From: a virus
Length of the DNA: 21,680 nt
Virus record (IMG/VR): IMGVR_UViG_3300035698_003746
Span: 1-21,680 of that record
Direction: 5' to 3' (one strand)
A model generated the notes under the pieces. That model did no database searches. It saw only the letters and a list, made by a program, of their open reading frames with translations, and was not told the origin of the DNA. The translations under genes were made by a program, and so were the position numbers. Of this stretch, positions 2,027 to 14,581 are shown piece by piece (the stretch's first letter is position 1; every line of letters starts with the position of its first letter).

Positions 2027-3091
2027 ATGCTGGTAAGAAACGTGATTCTTAGCGGTGGTGGGGCGTTCTGTGCGGTTCAAGCTGGCGCACTGCTTGGCCT
2101 GACCCGAGTCCTCGAATACGATTTCGATGGAGCTATAGGTGTCAGTGGTGGCGGGATCAACGTCGCCAATCTGGCACAAGCCTCACGCGGCAGTTCTCTC
2201 GAAGAGAGCCTGCACAACATCCAGCAGCAGGCTTCTGCTCTTGTCGGTCTATGGCTTACTTTCGCTGGCAACTCCTCGAAAATCTACAAGAGGAGAACTC
2301 AGTGGTGGCGCGGAGGACCTCTCCGCTTTGTCCTTCCCAATATCCTTCACATGCGAGCCAACTCCCTCTACGACTTCGGGCCTCTCGAAAAGCTGCTCAA
2401 GGACCACATAGACGAGGAAGCCCTCGCAAAGAGCGGTCGCATGTGTGCTGTCGGCACCTTCGACTTATCCCGCAAGCGTTACATCGAGTGGAACACGGGC
2501 ACTCGCTATCAAGGCTCCTTCCTGCGCAAGGTTCAAGGCACTGTCTCCATCCCAGTAGCAGCCCCCCCAGTAAAGGAGACTGCCACCATCTACTTGGAGG
2601 AACCGGGCACCGACGGACCAGTGAAGGTGGAAAGGACCTTCTACCTGGTGGACGGCGGCGTCGCAGACATCGCCCCCACACGTCATGCCTTCGATAACGA
2701 CCCGGACGAGGTCGTCATCCTGTCTGCCAGCCCCATCTCCATAGGGTCCGACGGACTTCCCTGCCCACCTGTCTATCCACCGGACAACAAGGACTGGACC
2801 AAAGCCTCCGTCTTCGACATAGGGCAAGAAACAATCTCTGCCTTCTGCAACGCCGTTCTCATCGGAGACGTGCGAAGAATCATCGCTGCCAACAACCGTA
2901 TCTCCGGTCCGGGTGGCGCAGGTTATGCAGAAGCTACCCACAAGAAGAAGGTCAGGGTGAAGATCATGTGCCCCGACGATACCGACCTCTTCAAGGGCGG
3001 GTGCCTCTCCTTCAAGAAGGAAGACATTCAAGCAAGGATCGACCACGGCTACCAGAAAGCCATCAAGGAACAGTGGCTTTGGGACGAGTGA
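2027..3091 (+). CDS. Patatin-like phospholipase, 354 aa
   Basis: Predicted lipid acyl hydrolase of the patatin family, which uses a Ser-Asp dyad to release fatty acids from phospholipids. Seen in order: the Gly-rich oxyanion-hole loop near the N-terminus (Ser9-Gly10-Gly11-Gly12), the nucleophile elbow GVSGG with Ser40 as catalytic serine, and the DGG motif with Asp209 as the second catalytic residue. The strand-loop-helix context around each motif fits the family. No signal peptide or membrane segment is present, so the enzyme is probably cytosolic and acts on the inner face of the host membrane or on another lipid. It stands alone between an unknown gene and small membrane-related genes, just ahead of packaging genes. 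Its role in infection (lysis, membrane remodelling, defence interference) is inference only. Confidence 0.88.
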   Translation: MLVRNVILSGGGAFCAVQAGALLGLTRVLEYDFDGAIGVSGGGINVANLAQASRGSSLEESLHNIQQQASALVGLWLTFAGNSSKIYKRRTQWWRGGPLRFVLPNILHMRANSLYDFGPLEKLLKDHIDEEALAKSGRMCAVGTFDLSRKRYIEWNTGTRYQGSFLRKVQGTVSIPVAAPPVKETATIYLEEPGTDGPVKVERTFYLVDGGVADIAPTRHAFDNDPDEVVILSASPISIGSDGLPCPPVYPPDNKDWTKASVFDIGQETISAFCNAVLIGDVRRIIAANNRISGPGGAGYAEATHKKKVRVKIMCPDDTDLFKGGCLSFKKEDIQARIDHGYQKAIKEQWLWDE

Positions 3092-3450: not shown

Positions 3451-3671
3451 AAGAGGCGGCGCTACTATGGGCGGCTGAGAAGCTGTTGAGGCTGGCGACC
3501 AAGTATGTGCGCAAGCGCCTGGGGAAGGGGAAGCCTCGCAAGACGAAGCGGCGGGAAGACTCCCTCAGTGCGGCAATGAGCGAGTTGGCTGGAATCGGTG
3601 TGGACGACGAGAAGAAGAAAGCCCCTTCCATAGTAAGGCTGGAGCTACGCGATGCCGGAGAAGACAGTTGA
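3447..3671 (+). CDS. Small, strongly basic protein, 74 aa
   Basis: Unknown protein with an N-terminal amphipathic, Leu/Ala/Lys-rich helix (about residues 1-25) followed by a dense Lys/Arg stretch (residues 22-41) and an ordinary charged C-terminus. The start is supported by GGGAGGTGGG just upstream, overlaps the preceding stop by four bases (ATGA), and the end overlaps the terminase start by 20 bases. A DNA-binding or membrane-active peptide would fit the composition. Position immediately before the large terminase is where a small terminase gene is often found, but the protein is short and I see no helix-turn-helix, so I do not call it that. Confidence 0.6.
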   Translation: MKEAALLWAAEKLLRLATKYVRKRLGKGKPRKTKRREDSLSAAMSELAGIGVDDEKKKAPSIVRLELRDAGEDS

Positions 3672-4866
3672 ACTGAACGAGGGGCAGTCCGTCGCTCTCA
3701 ACACGGACGCCCGCTTTGTTGCTCTCATAGCTGGAACAGGCGGGGGCAAGACTTTCTTTGGCCCCATCTGGCTCTACAACGAGATCAGCAAGTATCCAGG
3801 CGATGACTGGATGGTGGTCGCTCCCACGCACTCCATGCTTCGTCGAACAACCCGCCGCGACTTCCTCAAGTTCTTCTCCGGTACCCAACTCGAAGGCACG
3901 TTCAAAGAGGTCAAGGGCGTCTACGAGTTGCCCTGTGGTGGCAACGTCTACTTCTGCTCAGCCAACAATCCGAACACGCTTGAGGGTGGACAGATACGGG
4001 GGGCCTGGTTAGACGAAGCCGGCCAGATGGTAAGGTGGACCTGGGTTGTCATCCAGGCACGTCTCGGCCTGAAGCAGGGTCGTTGCTTAGTGACGACGAC
4101 TCCATACGGGATGAACTGGCTCTTCCACGAGTACTACAAGCAGGCGGAAGTGCATACCATCCCCATCGGCGGTGGCGCTACCAAGACGCAGAGCTCAACG
4201 GCCGACGAGTTCTTCGCTGTCCAGTTCCCCTCTATCTTGAACCCCCACTACCACACGGCCGAGTTCGAGAGGATGAAGACGCAGCTTACGGAGAGCGAGT
4301 TCCGAATGCGTTACATGGGGACCTTCGAGCAACTCTCCGGGCTCGTCTACCCATTCTTCAGAACGTGCGTGGCTCCCCAGTTCACCTACGCAACCAAGAG
4401 GGAAGACGACGTTATTGGCGGGATTGACCCAGGCTGGTCAGACAAGTTTGCGTGCATCACCTCAGTCTACGGAGGCGACAGCGTCTTGCACTTGAGGCGA
4501 GAGCTCTACCAGTCTCAGAAGGTTCTCAGAGAGATTGCGATGCACCTGGATCGCTCCAGCCGTTACTACTGTGACCCGGCTGCTCGTCGCGAGATCGAGG
4601 AGTTATCGGACCTGGGTATTGACGTGCGGCCTGGCACGAACGACGTGCGCCCAGGTATAATGAAGGTCAACGAATACATCATGGACCTCAGGCTCGACAT
4701 ACCGGAGGAACTCTTTCCGAATCTGATCTCCGAGGCGGACTTCTACGTGTTCGAGCAAGGAAAAGACAAGCCGTCGGACAAGACCCCCCATCACTTACTT
4801 GACGCTCTTCGCTACATGGTGATGGGCCTTGAGGACTCTTCAGACGTAGAAATCTTCTTTGTGTGA
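3652..4866 (+). CDS. terL: Terminase large subunit, 404 aa
   Basis: Packaging motor ATPase and headful/site nuclease. The ATPase half has the Walker A motif AGTGGGKT (Lys33), the Walker B motif ending in Asp121-Glu122, and the coupling motif TTTPYG. The RNase H-like nuclease half has the three expected acidic residues: Asp259 in IDPG, Asp308 in CDPA, and Asp384 in LLDALRY. Length is at the short end for the family, with no extra C-terminal domain. It would dock on the portal encoded next and fill the prohead with DNA. A GGAG-type ribosome binding site lies within the end of the preceding gene, so translation is likely coupled. The small subunit is not clearly identified. Confidence 0.95.
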   Translation: MPEKTVELNEGQSVALNTDARFVALIAGTGGGKTFFGPIWLYNEISKYPGDDWMVVAPTHSMLRRTTRRDFLKFFSGTQLEGTFKEVKGVYELPCGGNVYFCSANNPNTLEGGQIRGAWLDEAGQMVRWTWVVIQARLGLKQGRCLVTTTPYGMNWLFHEYYKQAEVHTIPIGGGATKTQSSTADEFFAVQFPSILNPHYHTAEFERMKTQLTESEFRMRYMGTFEQLSGLVYPFFRTCVAPQFTYATKREDDVIGGIDPGWSDKFACITSVYGGDSVLHLRRELYQSQKVLREIAMHLDRSSRYYCDPAARREIEELSDLGIDVRPGTNDVRPGIMKVNEYIMDLRLDIPEELFPNLISEADFYVFEQGKDKPSDKTPHHLLDALRYMVMGLEDSSDVEIFFV

Positions 4867-4878
4867 GGCAAAGGGATC

Positions 4879-6156
4879 ATGGCCAACGTAATCAAGTCGG
4901 CGTACGAGTGGGCCACGAAGGCATCGGCAGTGCTGCCTCTCATGATTCGGAGTATGTTCGGCGGGTCGGCCATACCACCCCCTAACAAAGCTGCGGACTA
5001 CCTGAAGCTCTACAGTATTGATCCGTGGTTGTATTCCGCAGTCTGGATGATCGCGAACGTCGCCGCGAAAGCTCCCATGCAAGTCAAAATAGGAGACGAC
5101 CTGACGGACGAGCACCCGCTCCTCGATTTGCTGAATGCCCCCAATGAGAATCAGAGTGCCTTCGACTTCCTTGAGTCCACGTTCACTTACCTGGAGCTGA
5201 CCGGGGAAGCCTTTTGGGAGAAGGTCTTTCCAGGAAAGCTGTGCCTCAGACCAGTCGAGCTTCACAACCTACGCCCCGACCGTGTAGAACTGCAAACGAG
5301 GGAGGACGCCACCGCCATAGGCAGCTACAAGTACTCTATTGGTGGTGCGGCGCCCATCGAGTTTGATCCAGACGCGATCGTGCCTATCCGGTATTTCAAT
5401 CCGACCGACGATTGGCGCGGACACTCCAGCTTCAAGCCGTTGGAGAACACCGTCATTGCGGGGAACTATGCGTCGCGATGGATCAAGCGATTCTTCCGTC
5501 GCTACGGGATTGGTGAGGGCGCGTTGGAGACGGCACAGCGTATAGGCGGGCCAGAGCAGAAGAGGCTTGGCGCTTCTTGGTCCAGCCGGTATGACGAGAA
5601 GGAAGACAAAACGCCTGTGCTTCCTACTGGGCTCGGCTACAAGGTTTACTCGCACCAGCCCAAAGAATCGGGGATGCTCGAACTGTACAAGTTCTTGAGG
5701 GAGGAGAAGCTCGGCGTCTGTGGAGTGCCTCCTGTACTGGTGGGCCTTGTCGAGTACGCACGCTATGCCAACTACGAGTTGCAGCTTAGGGCCTTCAATC
5801 TGATTACGCTGGTCCCGAAGCTCATCAAGCTGGAGGGAGCAATCAACCGCCATCTGATGCCAGCCTTCTGGACAAGTAAAGAGAGGGCAAGCAAACCGAG
5901 TAGACGGCCCAGATTCCAGTTCGATAAGAGGACGATAGGCTTCATCGACATGGGTGCCTTCGTAGATGTTCTCACCAACCAATACGACACAGGCGGCTTG
6001 ACTCCCAACGAGATCATCAAGCTGACAGGGTTGGGCCACACCTACGACGAGGGAGACGAACACTACACCGGAGAGCGTCGTCAGAAGATCGGCCAGGAGG
6101 TAGCACCGGAACCCGAAGAGCCGGACCCGACGCCGATGACTCCAGAGCCTGAATAG
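4879..6156 (+). CDS. Portal protein, HK97 type, 425 aa
   Basis: Forms the dodecameric portal ring at the head vertex through which DNA is packaged and ejected. Family features: the N-terminal YSIDPWLYSAVWMIAN block with nearby Leu/Ala helices, an early wing with the LLDLLNAPN element, the Thr/Gly/Glu-rich segment LTGEAFW, the acidic/Pro strand FDPDAIVPIRYFNP, and the long stem-crown helix region. The length matches HK97-like portals. The C-terminal 20 residues are Pro/Glu-rich and probably disordered. It follows the terminase after 12 bases. After it comes a 102-base gap that holds a TATAAT element. Confidence 0.93.
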   Translation: MANVIKSAYEWATKASAVLPLMIRSMFGGSAIPPPNKAADYLKLYSIDPWLYSAVWMIANVAAKAPMQVKIGDDLTDEHPLLDLLNAPNENQSAFDFLESTFTYLELTGEAFWEKVFPGKLCLRPVELHNLRPDRVELQTREDATAIGSYKYSIGGAAPIEFDPDAIVPIRYFNPTDDWRGHSSFKPLENTVIAGNYASRWIKRFFRRYGIGEGALETAQRIGGPEQKRLGASWSSRYDEKEDKTPVLPTGLGYKVYSHQPKESGMLELYKFLREEKLGVCGVPPVLVGLVEYARYANYELQLRAFNLITLVPKLIKLEGAINRHLMPAFWTSKERASKPSRRPRFQFDKRTIGFIDMGAFVDVLTNQYDTGGLTPNEIIKLTGLGHTYDEGDEHYTGERRQKIGQEVAPEPEEPDPTPMTPEPE

Positions 6157-6258: not shown

Positions 6259-7986
6259 ATGGCAGCGGAAAGCTATGCCTGTGAATGTCTTGACTGTGGG
6301 TACACCGCAGATAGTGATGAGCACTGCATGGAAACTCGCTGTCCCAAGTGTGGGGGAGAAATGAGACGGGCTGAGAGACCAGGAGTTGGGAATCGGGGGT
6401 TGGAGGCTGCTGGCAAGCCCTACCCAAACGAGCACGCTGGCAGGCTTCGGGAGCCTTCTCTCTTCCAACGCGATAGCTTTCGGCGTGTGCCTCGCAAGTC
6501 TGCAAGTGAGAAGAAGGTCTTCCACGTCATAATGGGAAGGCCACGCGGAGAGACCAATCTTGTTGAGCAGGCGTATCGCTATCCTGTGGGAAGTTGGACG
6601 GAGGAAGAGGCGCGAGAGCACGCCAAGAGATACAAGTGCATCCTGTTTGAGCCTGCCGTTGAGAAGGCCGACGAAGAAGCAATGAAGAACGCGGACTTCC
6701 TATCGTGTTCTTTGTGTGAGCAGCTTTTCTCCATCGTGGAGAAGCGGGATCGGTGCGACCGATGCGGCACCGAGCTTGAGCCTGTGATTACTGGAATGAC
6801 CATGGCTGAGAAGGGCATACGCGCTCCGTTTGGGTCGATGGCTGGTAAGAAGTTGATGGCCCGCAAGTTGATACGGCTTATCCCGAGGCACAAGACCTAC
6901 GTTGAGCCCTTCGCCGGTGCGGCCGCTGTCTTCTGGGGCAAGGAGAAGGTGGGCAAAGAGGTGCTGTCTGATCTCGACGACGACACCATGAACGCCTACC
7001 AGTTACTTGGGGGGATGACAGACGAGGAGAAGCGTTGGTTGGAGAGCCAGAGTTGGGAGATCACCAAGGCCAACTGGGATCGCGCCAAAGCGATGAAGCC
7101 AAAGAACAGGGGCGAGAAGTTCTGGAAGTTCAAGATGGAGGTCACTTCTTCGTGGGGTGGGAAGCGTACGCACTTCGTCGACAAGGCGGGCTACAAGGGA
7201 TGGGCTGGATGGAAGAGGTTGCAGGTCTTCAAAGATAGGTTGGCTGACGTTGATCTGGCGTGCTGTGATTGGGTGGAGACCATACGGAAGTACGATGGGC
7301 CGGAGACCTTCTTCTTCATTGATCCACCGTATCCAGAGGCCATCGACAGCCACAGTGAGTCCAGTGGTTTTTGGGGCCAGGACAAGAGAATCCCGATGGT
7401 CAAGATGGTGCAGGTTATCGGGGCGATCAAGGGAAAGTTTGTGTTGACCATCAACAAGAGTGACAAGACGCTGGCGGCTTTCAAGAAGTTCCATCTTGGC
7501 ACCTTGCAGTCGCGTGCTATTGAGGGGACTGTTCAACAGGGAGATACCGGGCAGGACGCTGCTCGCACCGAGTTGATCGTGGCCAACTTCCCCCTTACTG
7601 AGAAGAAAGCGGCTCTTGAGTTTGATCTGGCGATCAAGAGTGCCCCGGAGCGCATCGTTGGTGGCCTGGTGTACAAAGCGAAGGACCCTGACTCGCAGGA
7701 TGATTGGGCCGACGAGGATGTTATTCGGCAGGCTATGCACGAGTTTATGGAGGAAGGGCTCACATTTTCTATTGGGCATGAGAAGGAAATAGAGGCGAGG
7801 GTGTTGGAGTGTTTTCAAGCTGAAGAGGATACTAAGAAGGGTGGCGGGGATGTGCCTAAAGGTGCGTGGTGGATGACTTTACGCATAGTTGATGACTGGG
7901 CATGGGGACTCGTAGAGACTGGGGAGGTGCGTGGCTTTTCTTGGGAGGGTTTGGTCTTGCGTAAGAGGGGTCTTAGTCCAGCTTGA
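6259..7986 (+). CDS. Fusion: zinc ribbon, Dam-type N6-adenine methyltransferase and XkdF-like capsid protease, 575 aa
   Basis: Domain order: (1) zinc ribbon with Cys10/Cys13 and Cys28/Cys31; (2) a small DSFR-containing domain (about residues 72-132) like those found ahead of phage prohead proteases; (3) second zinc ribbon, Cys150/Cys153 and Cys166/Cys169; (4) a class D12 adenine methyltransferase (about 185-450) with motif X around Ala195-Gly196-Lys197, AdoMet motif I VEPFAG (215-220), and catalytic DPPY at 355-358; (5) a C-terminal XkdF/S78-like serine protease (about 456-575) with candidate catalytic His507 and Ser561 in GFS. The protease would mature the capsid; the methyltransferase would modify adenines, perhaps to resist restriction. 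ATG 6259 is chosen because GGAG lies six bases upstream; GTG 6247 is an in-frame alternative. The third Gly of motif I is replaced by Ala. Confidence 0.85.
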   Translation: MAAESYACECLDCGYTADSDEHCMETRCPKCGGEMRRAERPGVGNRGLEAAGKPYPNEHAGRLREPSLFQRDSFRRVPRKSASEKKVFHVIMGRPRGETNLVEQAYRYPVGSWTEEEAREHAKRYKCILFEPAVEKADEEAMKNADFLSCSLCEQLFSIVEKRDRCDRCGTELEPVITGMTMAEKGIRAPFGSMAGKKLMARKLIRLIPRHKTYVEPFAGAAAVFWGKEKVGKEVLSDLDDDTMNAYQLLGGMTDEEKRWLESQSWEITKANWDRAKAMKPKNRGEKFWKFKMEVTSSWGGKRTHFVDKAGYKGWAGWKRLQVFKDRLADVDLACCDWVETIRKYDGPETFFFIDPPYPEAIDSHSESSGFWGQDKRIPMVKMVQVIGAIKGKFVLTINKSDKTLAAFKKFHLGTLQSRAIEGTVQQGDTGQDAARTELIVANFPLTEKKAALEFDLAIKSAPERIVGGLVYKAKDPDSQDDWADEDVIRQAMHEFMEEGLTFSIGHEKEIEARVLECFQAEEDTKKGGGDVPKGAWWMTLRIVDDWAWGLVETGEVRGFSWEGLVLRKRGLSPA

Positions 7987-8041
7987 CCTACCTGCCGTTG
8001 GGAAGATACGATGGTATTACTGTTGAATGAGGGAGTTTGCA

Positions 8042-8746
8042 TTGGCGAACAAACTACGTCGTATCAAACCCAAAGTGCTTAGTCTCGTGAGGCGCCCCTC
8101 TATCGGGGAGGAGTTCTACGTCATCAAGGAGGACGGTTCGATGGCCAATAAGTTTACGGAAGCGTTTCCGCTCGGGGCCGAACTTGCAGAGAAGGTCGCC
8201 GACCCCACCGTTGGTAAGGAAGAGCTTCTGAAGGCTCTTGAGACTGCCATGAAGTGGAAAGCCGACCTACCGGAAGAGATGGTCGCGGCTCTAAGTGTCA
8301 TGGCGCACGCAGCCAAGTTCGGAGAAGAGGAAGAGGACCCGAAGGCCGAAGAGAAAGTCAAGTGTCCCAAGTGCGGCGTTGAGGTTGACTCCGGTGTTCC
8401 CGTTTGTCCTGCGTGTGGTGCCGACATGGCTCCCCCGAAGAAGGACGACGACCCCGACAAGGGCAACAAGGAAGCTGCCTTGGCTCGCAAGGAACAACTC
8501 GTCACTGCTCTGACGGGGGTCAAGGAACACCTTGGCAAGTTGGGTGCTGGCGTGGATCAGATCGTTGCTTTCATCGGACAGGAAGAGAAGGACGCTGCTC
8601 CTCCTTCCCTTGATGACATCGCTGTTGAGATAGACGTGGGAGAACCGGCCTCGAAGTCCAAATCACCGCAGACCGTGAAGGCTTCCGAGCTCATGGCACA
8701 GATTCAGGAAGCCCTCGTCGAAGTTCTCGAAGAAGGAGTGAGATAG
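8042..8746 (+). CDS. Capsid scaffold-like protein with zinc ribbon, 234 aa
   Basis: Lies where the scaffold is expected, between protease and major capsid genes. The N-terminal 30 residues (LSLVRRPS, then a Phe-Tyr-Val and Lys-rich strand) match the segment that usually follows the protease domain within XkdF-type proteins, so this gene probably holds a piece split from the protease. The rest is Glu/Lys/Ala-rich and helical, as in scaffolds, with a zinc ribbon (Cys108/Cys111, Cys122/Cys125) between helical halves. Start choice: TTG 8042, six bases after GAGGGAG, gives the usual MANK-type start; ATG 8027 in the same frame has no good binding site. An internal ATG at 8141 has a perfect binding site. 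The gene ends one base before the capsid ATG. Confidence 0.75.
   Translation: MANKLRRIKPKVLSLVRRPSIGEEFYVIKEDGSMANKFTEAFPLGAELAEKVADPTVGKEELLKALETAMKWKADLPEEMVAALSVMAHAAKFGEEEEDPKAEEKVKCPKCGVEVDSGVPVCPACGADMAPPKKDDDPDKGNKEAALARKEQLVTALTGVKEHLGKLGAGVDQIVAFIGQEEKDAAPPSLDDIAVEIDVGEPASKSKSPQTVKASELMAQIQEALVEVLEEGVR
8126..8143 (+). promoter_or_regulatory. Internal ribosome binding site and in-frame ATG in the scaffold-like gene
   Basis: AAGGAGG at 8126-8132 followed eight bases later by ATG 8141 is the strongest ribosome binding site in this part of the window, yet it lies inside the coding frame. Initiation here would make a 201-residue product that lacks the SLVRRP segment and retains the zinc ribbon and helices. 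Nested scaffold starts are known in other phages (lambda C/Nu3). Whether it is used cannot be told from sequence, as the motif encodes Lys-Glu-Asp in frame and may be coincidental. Confidence 0.45.
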
Positions 8747-8747
8747 A

Positions 8748-9845
8748 ATGGCTAAGACATTAGGGGACCTTCTCAAAGAGCAACTGCATGGCACCCTGGA
8801 CAAGTACATGGAAGGGGGCGGGCGTCGGAGTGGCCTGGAGTCCGCTAACAAGAGTGCCGATGATGGAGAGGACGAGCTCTCCATTTGTCGGTATCTCAAG
8901 GGCGTCTCCTTCGGCATATGGACCAACGCCGAGAAGGAGAAGGAGGCATTTGAGGAAGCCAGCAAGGCCATGACTGAGCTTACGGGCGCAGGCGGTGGCG
9001 TGCTGGTTCCTCCGAAGATCGAGAGGCAACTTATTCCTCTGCTCGCGGCCAAGTCCGTGATTCGAGGAATGGGGCCGCGAGTCCTGAACTTGCCGCAGAC
9101 CAACGCGGTGAGTATCCCCCGGAAGACTGCTTCCACTACGGCTTACTGGGTGGGGGAAAGCAGCTCGATCACGGAGAGTCAGCCCACGTTGGGCGACATC
9201 CAGCTTCGGTTGAAGACCGTGGCTGCTCTGTGTAAGCTCCCCAACGAGCTTCTGGAGGATTCTCAGCCGTCGGCTGATGCGCTGGTCAAAGAGGATATGA
9301 CCGACGTACTGGCGAGGGCAGAGGACCTGGCCATCATTCAGGGTTCAGGAGGAACAGAGCCCCTTGGCCTCTACAATGACCCAAGTGTCAGCTCGACCAG
9401 CCTGACGGCAGCCATCACGTACGACGACCTGATGGACGTGATGTATGCCATCGAGGTGGCCAACGCCACTTACTCCGGTTGGCTGATGCACCCCCGAAGC
9501 AAGAACACCCTTCGGAAGGTCAAGAACGGCATCGGTGACTTGGTCTGGCAGCAGGGCGACGTGACGAAGTCGAATCCCGACAGGCTCTTGGGCCTGCCGT
9601 GCTTCTACACCACGCAAATCCCGATCAACCTGACTGTCGGAGCGATCACCAGTTCCAGCTACATCATGCTCGGTGACTTCAAGGAGTTGCTGATTGCTCA
9701 GAAGCGAGCGGGCCTGACCATTGCTGCTTCTTCGGAGACCAGTGATGCCTTCGCGAAGAACCAGACCTGGTTCCGCGCACTGCGTAGGTTGGATGCAGGG
9801 CCGAGGCAGCCCGACGCCTTCCACATTCTCAAGGGTGTGCAGTAA
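8748..9845 (+). CDS. Major capsid protein, HK97 fold, 365 aa
   Basis: Builds the icosahedral head. An N-terminal helical, charged delta-like region (about residues 1-90) precedes the first conserved capsid block, GGGVLVPPKIERQLIPLL (near residue 83). After it come the E-loop region with the SIPRKT and AYWVGE elements, the spine helix region ending at LLEDS, the A-domain with EDLAIIQGSGGTEPLG, and the GDFKELLI / GLTIAAS blocks that precede the C-terminal P-domain strand. The length fits. The upstream binding site is GGAG near the end of the scaffold gene. A strong terminator follows immediately, consistent with high expression of this gene. If the preceding protease is active, the N-terminal region would be cut off. 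Confidence 0.93.
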   Translation: MAKTLGDLLKEQLHGTLDKYMEGGGRRSGLESANKSADDGEDELSICRYLKGVSFGIWTNAEKEKEAFEEASKAMTELTGAGGGVLVPPKIERQLIPLLAAKSVIRGMGPRVLNLPQTNAVSIPRKTASTTAYWVGESSSITESQPTLGDIQLRLKTVAALCKLPNELLEDSQPSADALVKEDMTDVLARAEDLAIIQGSGGTEPLGLYNDPSVSSTSLTAAITYDDLMDVMYAIEVANATYSGWLMHPRSKNTLRKVKNGIGDLVWQQGDVTKSNPDRLLGLPCFYTTQIPINLTVGAITSSSYIMLGDFKELLIAQKRAGLTIAASSETSDAFAKNQTWFRALRRLDAGPRQPDAFHILKGVQ

Positions 9846-10768: not shown

Positions 10769-11347
10769 ATGGTACTTTCAAGTGACTACACACAGGGAGG
10801 GTTGGAACGACCTACCCTGGCAATCTCTTCCGCGTCCACGTTGGGACGCGGTCATACAGGCTTCCTCATTGCCGTCGACATCTCTGGCGGTGACATCACA
10901 GTGACGTTGCCAGCAGCCTCTACTTGTAAGGGGCTTGGCTATCTCTTCATGGTCTCTGTAGCTGGTAACACCCTGACTGTGAGTGCTGCGAGTGGTGAAA
11001 CCATTGACGGCGCCAGCCTGGGCGTCACTGCCGACACAGCCTATGCTACCTTCTGCATCGTGTCTGACGGCGATGAATGGATTTCTTACTGTAGCACTGG
11101 GACATGGACGGTCATTACTACGACCTCCACCAGTACCACAACGTCTACTACGACATCCACCAGCACATCGACGACTACCACTACCAGCACGAGCACATCG
11201 ACCTCAACGTCTACGACTACCAGTACCAGCACAACGTCGACATCGACCTCAACGTCGACATCAACCTCAACTTCGACCTCTACCTCTACCTCAACATCGA
11301 CGAGCACGAGCACTGTCACCAGTACGACAACCAGCACTACTCCGTAG
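10769..11347 (+). CDS. Virion surface-type beta protein, long paralog with Thr/Ser tail, 192 aa
   Basis: Second member of the tandem pair. Residues 1-116 are homologous along their whole length to the preceding protein (RGHTG at 27-31, VDISGGD at 36-42, TVTLPA near 44-49, GNTLTV at 66-71). Residues 117-192 consist almost only of Thr and Ser, with one Val, ending in TSTTTSTTP. Such a tail would be extended, flexible, uncharged and a possible target of O-glycosylation. The start has AGAGGAGG eight bases upstream and the gene follows its paralog after 14 bases. A larger number of short copies with some long ones in the virion would be a natural outcome of this arrangement; this is inference. Confidence 0.75.
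   Translation: MVLSSDYTQGGLERPTLAISSASTLGRGHTGFLIAVDISGGDITVTLPAASTCKGLGYLFMVSVAGNTLTVSAASGETIDGASLGVTADTAYATFCIVSDGDEWISYCSTGTWTVITTTSTSTTTSTTTSTSTSTTTTTSTSTSTSTSTTTSTSTTSTSTSTSTSTSTSTSTSTSTSTSTSTVTSTTTSTTP
11117..11344 (+). repeat. Thr/Ser-coding low-complexity tract, first copy
   Basis: 228 bases made of Thr (ACN) and Ser (TCN, AGY) codons. All four Thr codons and several Ser codons are mixed, so the tract is not a simple microsatellite, although short units such as ACGTCTAC and ACATCGAC recur. The reading frames on both strands stay open because the tract lacks stop triplets, giving long spurious frames rich in His/Tyr/Asp or Val/Asp/Glu. The same type of tract is found at 14462-14578. 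Confidence 0.85.
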
Positions 11348-14044: not shown

Positions 14045-14581
14045 ATGGCTACGATTGCTGGATACAACGCAAAGGTTGTTTGGGCCGGTATGTACACGAG
14101 CCATGCCCACGCTTGGAGCATGGACGTTGTTGCCGATGCCCTCGATGACACTGCCTGGGAATACACTTCGTCGTCTTCAGGTGGGGCTCAAGGGAAGAAG
14201 GCTGGTTCTGGTGCTGATGGATGGAGGACACACAAAGCCGGTCTGTCCGGTTTCTCTGGCTCCTTCGAGTGCTACCAGGATTCGGCTCCAAGTGAGATAC
14301 CTGATGGGACTACTGCGAGGCTCTACTTGTACGTGGATTCCGGCACGTACTGGAGTGGCATCGCTATGGTCACTGGTATGCACCCGGCTGCTCCGATCGA
14401 CGGCCTGCAAACTGTGACGGTGGACTTCCAGGGAGCCTTCCACCTGAGCCAAGACTGGCACACCTCGACCACCACGTCGACTACGACCAGTACAAGCACA
14501 ACCACGTCTACTTCAACGACAACCTCAACGACAACCTCAACGTCTACTACAACGTCGACCACTACCAGCACGACTCCTTAG
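14045..14581 (+). CDS. Major tail tube protein, long paralog with Thr/Ser tail, 178 aa
   Basis: First of two homologous tail tube-type proteins. It shares with the next protein the N-terminal MAT-AG start, AWSMDVVAD, a GWRTHKAGL block (59-67), GFSGSFEC (69-76), and the C-terminal HPAAPIDGL...TVDF strand pair (113-128). These, with the position between terminator and chaperones, suggest the subunit of the tail tube. Residues 140-178 are only Thr and Ser apart from the last Pro and end in TSTTTSTTP, as in the 192-residue protein upstream. The start has GGAGGAG nine bases upstream. A mix of tailed and untailed tube subunits is the likely meaning; in SPP1 a similar mix comes from frameshifting. 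Confidence 0.75.
   Translation: MATIAGYNAKVVWAGMYTSHAHAWSMDVVADALDDTAWEYTSSSSGGAQGKKAGSGADGWRTHKAGLSGFSGSFECYQDSAPSEIPDGTTARLYLYVDSGTYWSGIAMVTGMHPAAPIDGLQTVTVDFQGAFHLSQDWHTSTTTSTTTSTSTTTSTSTTTSTTTSTSTTTSTTTSTTP
14462..14578 (+). repeat. Thr/Ser-coding low-complexity tract, second copy
   Basis: 117 bases of mixed Thr and Ser codons, coding the C-terminal tail of the first tail tube protein. Third positions vary (ACA, ACC, ACG, ACT; TCA, TCG, TCT; AGT, AGC), so the tract is kept at the protein level. It ends with codons for TSTTTSTTP and a TAG stop, as does the tract at 11117-11344. Confidence 0.85.

Follow-up and report, generated by a model that had tools for sequence, protein, structure and literature searches.

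Closest described systems

Prohead proteases act within the procapsid, where internal head proteins are cut; packaged proteins of this kind are as a rule chains of their own. XkdF-type prohead proteases (PF14550) are usually about 200 residues long, or form a protease plus scaffold protein of about 400 residues in which the protease lies near the N-terminus. In phage P1 the Dar proteins are found in the head and are ejected with the DNA; among these head proteins, DarB is an adenine methylase protein and DarA undergoes trimming by the prohead protease (PMC5512222, PMC12810830). A 2017 survey of phages and conjugative elements described polyvalent proteins, packaged multi-domain enzyme chains in which an adenine methylase is among the commonest modules, and proposed that they are released by zincin-like metallopeptidases; its main text mentions neither a prohead protease domain nor a DNA ligase (PMC5512222). 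Here we describe a gene of an uncultivated tailed virus (IMG/VR virus record IMGVR_UViG_3300035698_003746; its 21,680 bases are the window analysed here) in which a D12-class adenine methyltransferase and an XkdF-type prohead protease are encoded in one frame. No paper on a methyltransferase-prohead protease fusion turned up in the open-access literature.

The window gene shares with XkdF-type proteases an above-cut-off match in its C-terminal 105 residues, the invariant His, Glu and Ser, and a location between the portal and the scaffold and major capsid protein (MCP) genes; unlike them, it has the protease as the last, C-terminal part of an enzyme polyprotein. It resembles the P1 Dar system, where an adenine methylase is delivered from the head and a packaged defence protein is processed by the prohead protease, although in the window the enzyme is of the D12 class and shares a chain with the protease. 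The DarB arrangement of an EcoKI/TaqI-like methylase with an SF2 helicase was not seen by Pfam, the window methylase being of the D12 class and no helicase being matched. As in polyvalent proteins, disparate enzymes share one chain in a phage packaging and head context, two in the window and three in a related contig (L278), while the signature domains MPTase, ArdC, ART and LPDs had no match in Pfam, PHROG and NCBIfam scans (LPDs were not searched by name).

A methyltransferase and a prohead protease in one frame

The frame runs uninterrupted from ATG to TGA and encodes 575 residues, with GGAG immediately 5' of the ATG; an alternative GTG start 12 bases upstream would give 579 residues. Its features are listed here, with L204 and L278 denoting related contigs described below.

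6259-7986, + strand: fusion protein of 575 residues, zinc ribbon, DSFR, zinc ribbon, D12 methyltransferase, Peptidase_S78_2 (open frame, Pfam; fusion shared by L278)
6280-6366, + strand: first zinc-ribbon-like motif, a C4 type with CxxC pairs (C10, C13, C28, C31)
6415-6669, + strand: DSFR domain, residues ~53-137 (PYPNEHAxRL...DSFR...EQAYRYP...FEPA), capsid-protease-associated; matches phage capsid-locus proteins
6697-6780, + strand: second zinc-ribbon-like motif, C4 (C150, C153, C166, C169)
6844-7494, + strand: D12-class N6-adenine DNA methyltransferase, Pfam core residues 196-412; sister of the L278 D12
6904-6930, + strand: S-adenosylmethionine-binding motif I, EPFAGAAAV (residue 216)
7321-7332, + strand: catalytic motif IV, DPPY (residue 355)
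7636-7950, + strand: Peptidase_S78_2 (XkdF-type prohead protease), residues 460-564, by Pfam and alignment; 55% identity to the L204 tail
7777-7779, + strand: invariant His507, likely catalytic (S78_2 alignment)
7807-7809, + strand: invariant Glu517, likely catalytic (S78_2 alignment)
7939-7941, + strand: invariant Ser561 in GFSWEG, likely nucleophile (S78_2 alignment)

Domains were called with Pfam at its curated cut-offs. MethyltransfD12 scored 50.3 bits over residues 196-412 (cut-off 22, E 3.5e-13) and Peptidase_S78_2 scored 62.8 bits over residues 460-564 (cut-off 24, E 4.1e-17), the latter improving to E 2.2e-18 when the C-terminal tail was the sole query. An earlier note made from the letters of this DNA had read the gene as a methyltransferase built into a capsid maturation protease; the fusion is real, the order zinc ribbon, DSFR, zinc ribbon, D12, XkdF-type protease is as it proposed, and the C-terminal end, on which that reading depended, does match a protease family. 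His507, Glu517 and Ser561 are invariant across nine aligned S78_2 proteases and all are kept in the window, as are EPFAGAAAV and DPPY of the methyltransferase; by their sequence motifs the predicted catalytic sites of both enzymes are intact. The Dam subfamily model TIGR00571 scored 51.9 bits, under its curated cut-off of 114.85, and we therefore assign the enzyme to the D12 class and not to Dam proper. The two ribbons matched zinc-ribbon profiles below threshold only (rubrerythrin-like and zinc-ribbon profiles for the first), and a 30-residue stretch at the first ribbon matched the zinc ribbon of the L204 polyprotein by BLAST (E 0.004). AlphaFold modelled the DSFR domain at a pLDDT of about 95; a structure search with the whole protein returned weak methyltransferase matches only.

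The gene sits between the portal gene and the scaffold and MCP genes, as do the corresponding polyprotein genes of its relatives. The surrounding head genes are as follows.

3652-4866, + strand: terminase large subunit (TerL)
4879-6156, + strand: portal protein (Phage_portal, E 9.8e-54)
8027-8746, + strand: probable scaffold-position protein bearing a zinc ribbon, for which L204, L273 and L278 have homologues in the corresponding position
8748-9845, + strand: HK97-type MCP (Phage_capsid, E 4.3e-59)

The zinc ribbon of the scaffold-position protein lies at 8351-8428 (PF13248, above cut-off), which would be unusual in a protein that is degraded or expelled.

Recurrence of the fusion

Among related viral contigs, D12 and S78_2 share one frame in L278 also. 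The PHROG family phrog_13242 matched the window in one stretch, residues 189-574 aligning to profile positions 27-431 of 450 (E 6e-41, 142 bits), and matched L278 with 157 bits. Free-standing S78_2 proteins match positions ~300-430 of this profile only and free-standing D12 proteins positions ~10-284 only, and since each thus covers a part of it we take phrog_13242 to be a family of D12-S78_2 fusions. Like the window protein it has D12 followed by S78_2 within one profile, with no function assigned in PHROGs; unlike the window protein, its 450 positions leave no space for the zinc ribbon-DSFR-zinc ribbon part. In the genomes of one phylum it was matched in 42 of 398, every match lying within the D12 part. 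A second family, phrog_14859, is named as an RNA ligase, yet its positions ~245-360 match S78_2 proteases (window 7636-7950, L125 and L285); from these profile matches it is possibly another ligase-protease fusion.

Other searches for precedents gave none. No relatives were returned from viral contigs by scans with the whole protein, the D12 part or the portal, each used singly, and the nine-sequence S78_2 alignment offered no segment of sufficient conservation to serve as a query. In 50,697 phage records, tblastn gave no protein spanning D12 and S78_2. The sole match to cover more than 80% of a D12-S78_2 query, in Pseudomonas phage Phipami28, was rejected, since what follows the D12 gene there is unrelated sequence, with a gene on the opposite strand. 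Records named 'DNA methyltransferase/prohead protease' (Rhizobium) or 'DNA methyltransferase' (Lactococcus and Pseudomonas putida phages) were also set aside, those opened being S78_2 proteins of ~150-350 residues without D12 by the D12 profile. The public entries MN988459, MN988552, KX456206 and PP496413 (L002, L005, L121 and L122), named DNA methyltransferase, are S78_2 proteases that have no methyltransferase, likely through carry-over of the name. D12 genes also occur in the Haloarcula viruses HCTV-2 and HVTV-1, where they are unfused.

Ligase polyproteins in the nearest relatives

The nearest relatives were reached through other genes and parts of genes, L204 being found with an MCP query and L273 and L278 being added with protease-tail queries. 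Identity to the window across them is about 50% for TerL, 36-46% for the portal and 44-46% for the MCP; L278, from another sample, has TerL, portal and MCP homologous to those of the window. Each encodes a larger polyprotein.

L204, 486-4115: ligase and S78_2 polyprotein, 1210 residues
L273, 2269-6363: ligase and S78_2 polyprotein, 1365 residues
L278, 2554-6354: ligase, D12 and S78_2 polyprotein, 1267 residues

This ligase-protease polyprotein in the nearest relatives is a new finding and broader than the fusion from which we began. The L204 and L273 proteins are colinear (48% identity), with an ATP-dependent DNA ligase domain (PF01068, E 1.6e-13 and 9.6e-19, respectively), and both run from a nucleotidyltransferase-like start, seen by eye, through the ligase, a LigD-phosphoesterase-like stretch (a weak resemblance, below the Pfam cut-off) and a domain with RWW(K/R)GQ...GPSTE to a C-terminal S78_2. 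The L278 frame has all these parts and a D12 besides, with ligase (E 2.2e-14), D12 (2.2e-18) and S78_2 (1.4e-17) by Pfam, and its N-terminal model, confident in the ligase core, matched DNA ligases by Foldseek, the best being from Thermococcus (E 4e-18). No ligase was found in the window frame or elsewhere in the 21,680-base fragment. Among 63 distinct S78_2 frames of the fetched loci, D12 occurs in two and ligase in three, though this set was gathered by similarity and gives no estimate of frequency. At L287:2008-4893 we also saw a protein that combines a beta-lactamase-fold domain (just below cut-off) with an ATP-dependent DNA ligase; its gene immediately precedes the protease gene, on the upstream side, and the protein has the appearance of one that processes and joins ends.

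The ATP-dependent DNA ligase of the archaeal virus ANMV-1 (AJP62006.1) is colinear with the L278 protein through its ligase, PE-like and RWW parts (L278 residues 14-752 and 1009-1136), which flank the L278 D12; unlike the L278 protein it has 866 residues and stands alone without protease or D12, the ANMV-1 prohead protease being a different and separate gene. ANMV-1 is thought to infect methane-oxidising archaea (PMC4372165). This ligase link, together with the presence of archaeal ligases in the best-ranked fold matches, gives no more than a hint of an archaeal connection of the clade.

The D12 domains of the window and L278 are 38% identical over 270 residues and were sisters in a 20-sequence tree (support 100/99). 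In L278 the domain is a clean insertion of 254 residues at a place occupied by 13 residues in the ANMV-1 ligase and 20 in L204. L273 has 104 residues opposite the insertion, which we considered as a D12 remnant and rejected, the match being weak and unconvincing (i-E 0.045). A tree of TerL, portal and MCP placed the window with L204 and L273 and not with L278 (moderate support, 85/79); D12 has thus either disappeared from the L204/L273 line or been exchanged. On the capsid-protease tail, ligase and methyltransferase appear to be interchangeable modules. A 510-residue frame at L285:4867-6396 has a class-I methyltransferase (Methyltransf_11, E 5.6e-10) ahead of S78_2.

The DSFR domain and a possible insertion of D12

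The DSFR domain is common to capsid-locus proteins (protease-capsid fusions) of Synechococcus and Roseobacter phages and occurs in more than 500 IMG/VR contigs; a genome scan with the DSFR alignment gave two loci only. When 75 DSFR proteins were scanned, 52 had Peptidase_S78 and six, the window counted, had S78_2, which bears out the earlier proposal that this N-terminal domain is linked to capsid proteases; D12 was found in the window alone. In several S78 proteins a zinc ribbon follows DSFR at similar spacing. At least eight viral proteins have DSFR and then S78_2, separated by a linker of roughly 10-90 residues, without a methyltransferase (DSFR-S78_2 proteins lacking D12 are in L125, L077, L071, L048, L062, L056, L136, L129 and L137), so that the module between the two domains in the window represents an addition or an exchange. 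The earlier note had D12 inserted between the N-terminal domains and the protease. That D12 is an extra module relative to the DSFR-linker-S78_2 proteins holds; a one-off insertion into a DSFR protease does not, given that the sister D12 of L278 lies in a different backbone, a ligase polyprotein, and that a DNA ligase makes up the whole N-terminal part in the nearest relatives. Insertion of D12 and replacement of the N-terminal part with a zinc ribbon-DSFR-zinc ribbon unit are equally possible. An 818-residue frame at L014:3467-5920 was seen to have the order S78 protease, DSFR, zinc ribbon, AAA ATPase (FtsH/Cdc48-like).

Possible roles of the fusion protein

What calls for explanation is a fused gene with intact motifs, held in a syntenic place in the head operon, that recurs in a relative and whose enzyme modules are exchanged on a constant protease tail. 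Our preferred reading, to which we give a probability of roughly 45%, is that the gene encodes a capsid maturation protease ending a modular polyprotein with an exchangeable DNA enzyme, which would enter the procapsid, be released by proteolysis and mark DNA. The S78_2 tail would take the polyprotein into the procapsid, where maturation proteolysis would separate enzyme from protease; the freed methyltransferase might then remain in the head and enter the cell with the genome, or act on viral DNA around packaging, and its adenine marks could protect viral DNA from restriction or other host systems. Such packaging into proheads and release by self-cleavage, which the earlier note had also envisaged, would by analogy be consistent with P1 Dar and the polyvalent proteins; the methyltransferase might also, as that note supposed, be produced in the amounts of the protease. 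If true, a protease that carries and releases DNA-modifying enzymes would make for compact delivery by a protein that processes itself, and it would account for enzyme-protease fusions under confusing database names such as 'DNA methyltransferase/prohead protease'. Since the protease bears a methylase in the window and a DNA ligase in close relatives, it may be a vehicle that loads DNA enzymes into the particle. Extending this to a general cargo tail, by which a ligase with end-processing domains, a methyltransferase or both would be drawn in, cut free and delivered to seal and mark incoming DNA, is more doubtful, and we put it forward tentatively.

Several observations weigh against the preferred reading. 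No conserved cleavage site was identified in the fusion protein, and the D12 part of the AlphaFold model is of low confidence, as few homologous sequences were usable. In L279 a ligase-like gene lies upstream of, and adjoins, a separate S78_2 gene of 155 residues, and the ANMV-1 ligase is free-standing and distant from the protease gene; fusion is thus not required for the enzyme.

The main rival, which we regard as quite plausible, is an enzyme that acts in the infected cell without a role in packaging: loss of a stop codon or capture of a module would have coupled expression only, and an orphan Dam-like D12 would protect replicating DNA. Free-standing D12 genes are indeed common in phages and hosts, and the separate neighbouring ligase and protease genes of L279 and L287 show a route to fusion that needs no packaging role; yet the enzymes found on capsid proteases are varied (D12, DNA ligase, the class-I methyltransferase of L285 and the AAA ATPase on the S78-DSFR protein of L014), and the fusion has been retained across 38-55% identity in the clade. 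It is improbable that the D12 part is instead an arm that binds DNA or the procapsid and thereby positions the protease, or a device timing proteolysis with packaging, with methylation secondary or lost. The zinc ribbons and DSFR probably serve in binding and the protease tail is constant while its N-terminal partners vary, as such an arm would have it, but the window keeps EPFAGAAAV and DPPY intact, as L278 does EPFAG and DPPY, and tethering alone would not conserve catalytic motifs. An artefact, with two genes fused by a missed stop or in a chimeric contig, is scarcely credible even though the close architecture is known from metagenome contigs alone: the frame is continuous with codon-position G+C along it like that of neighbouring genes, and an assembly join, which the earlier note had raised as a danger to its reading, is ruled out because the fusion recurs in the independent contig L278 and in phrog_13242, which covers both D12 and S78_2.

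Other features of the loci

Upstream of TerL the window encodes a patatin-like phospholipase (2027-3091, PF01734, E 9.5e-16), an unusual location, and a possible ERCC4-type nuclease (242-844, E 0.0013, below cut-off). In L279 the TerL frame (2-2614) has an intein holding a LAGLIDADG endonuclease. Two structural-region proteins of the window (10769-11347 and 14045-14581) have long C-terminal tails of Thr and Ser only (TSTTTSTST...), encoded by short degenerate repeats; these are possibly surface tails.
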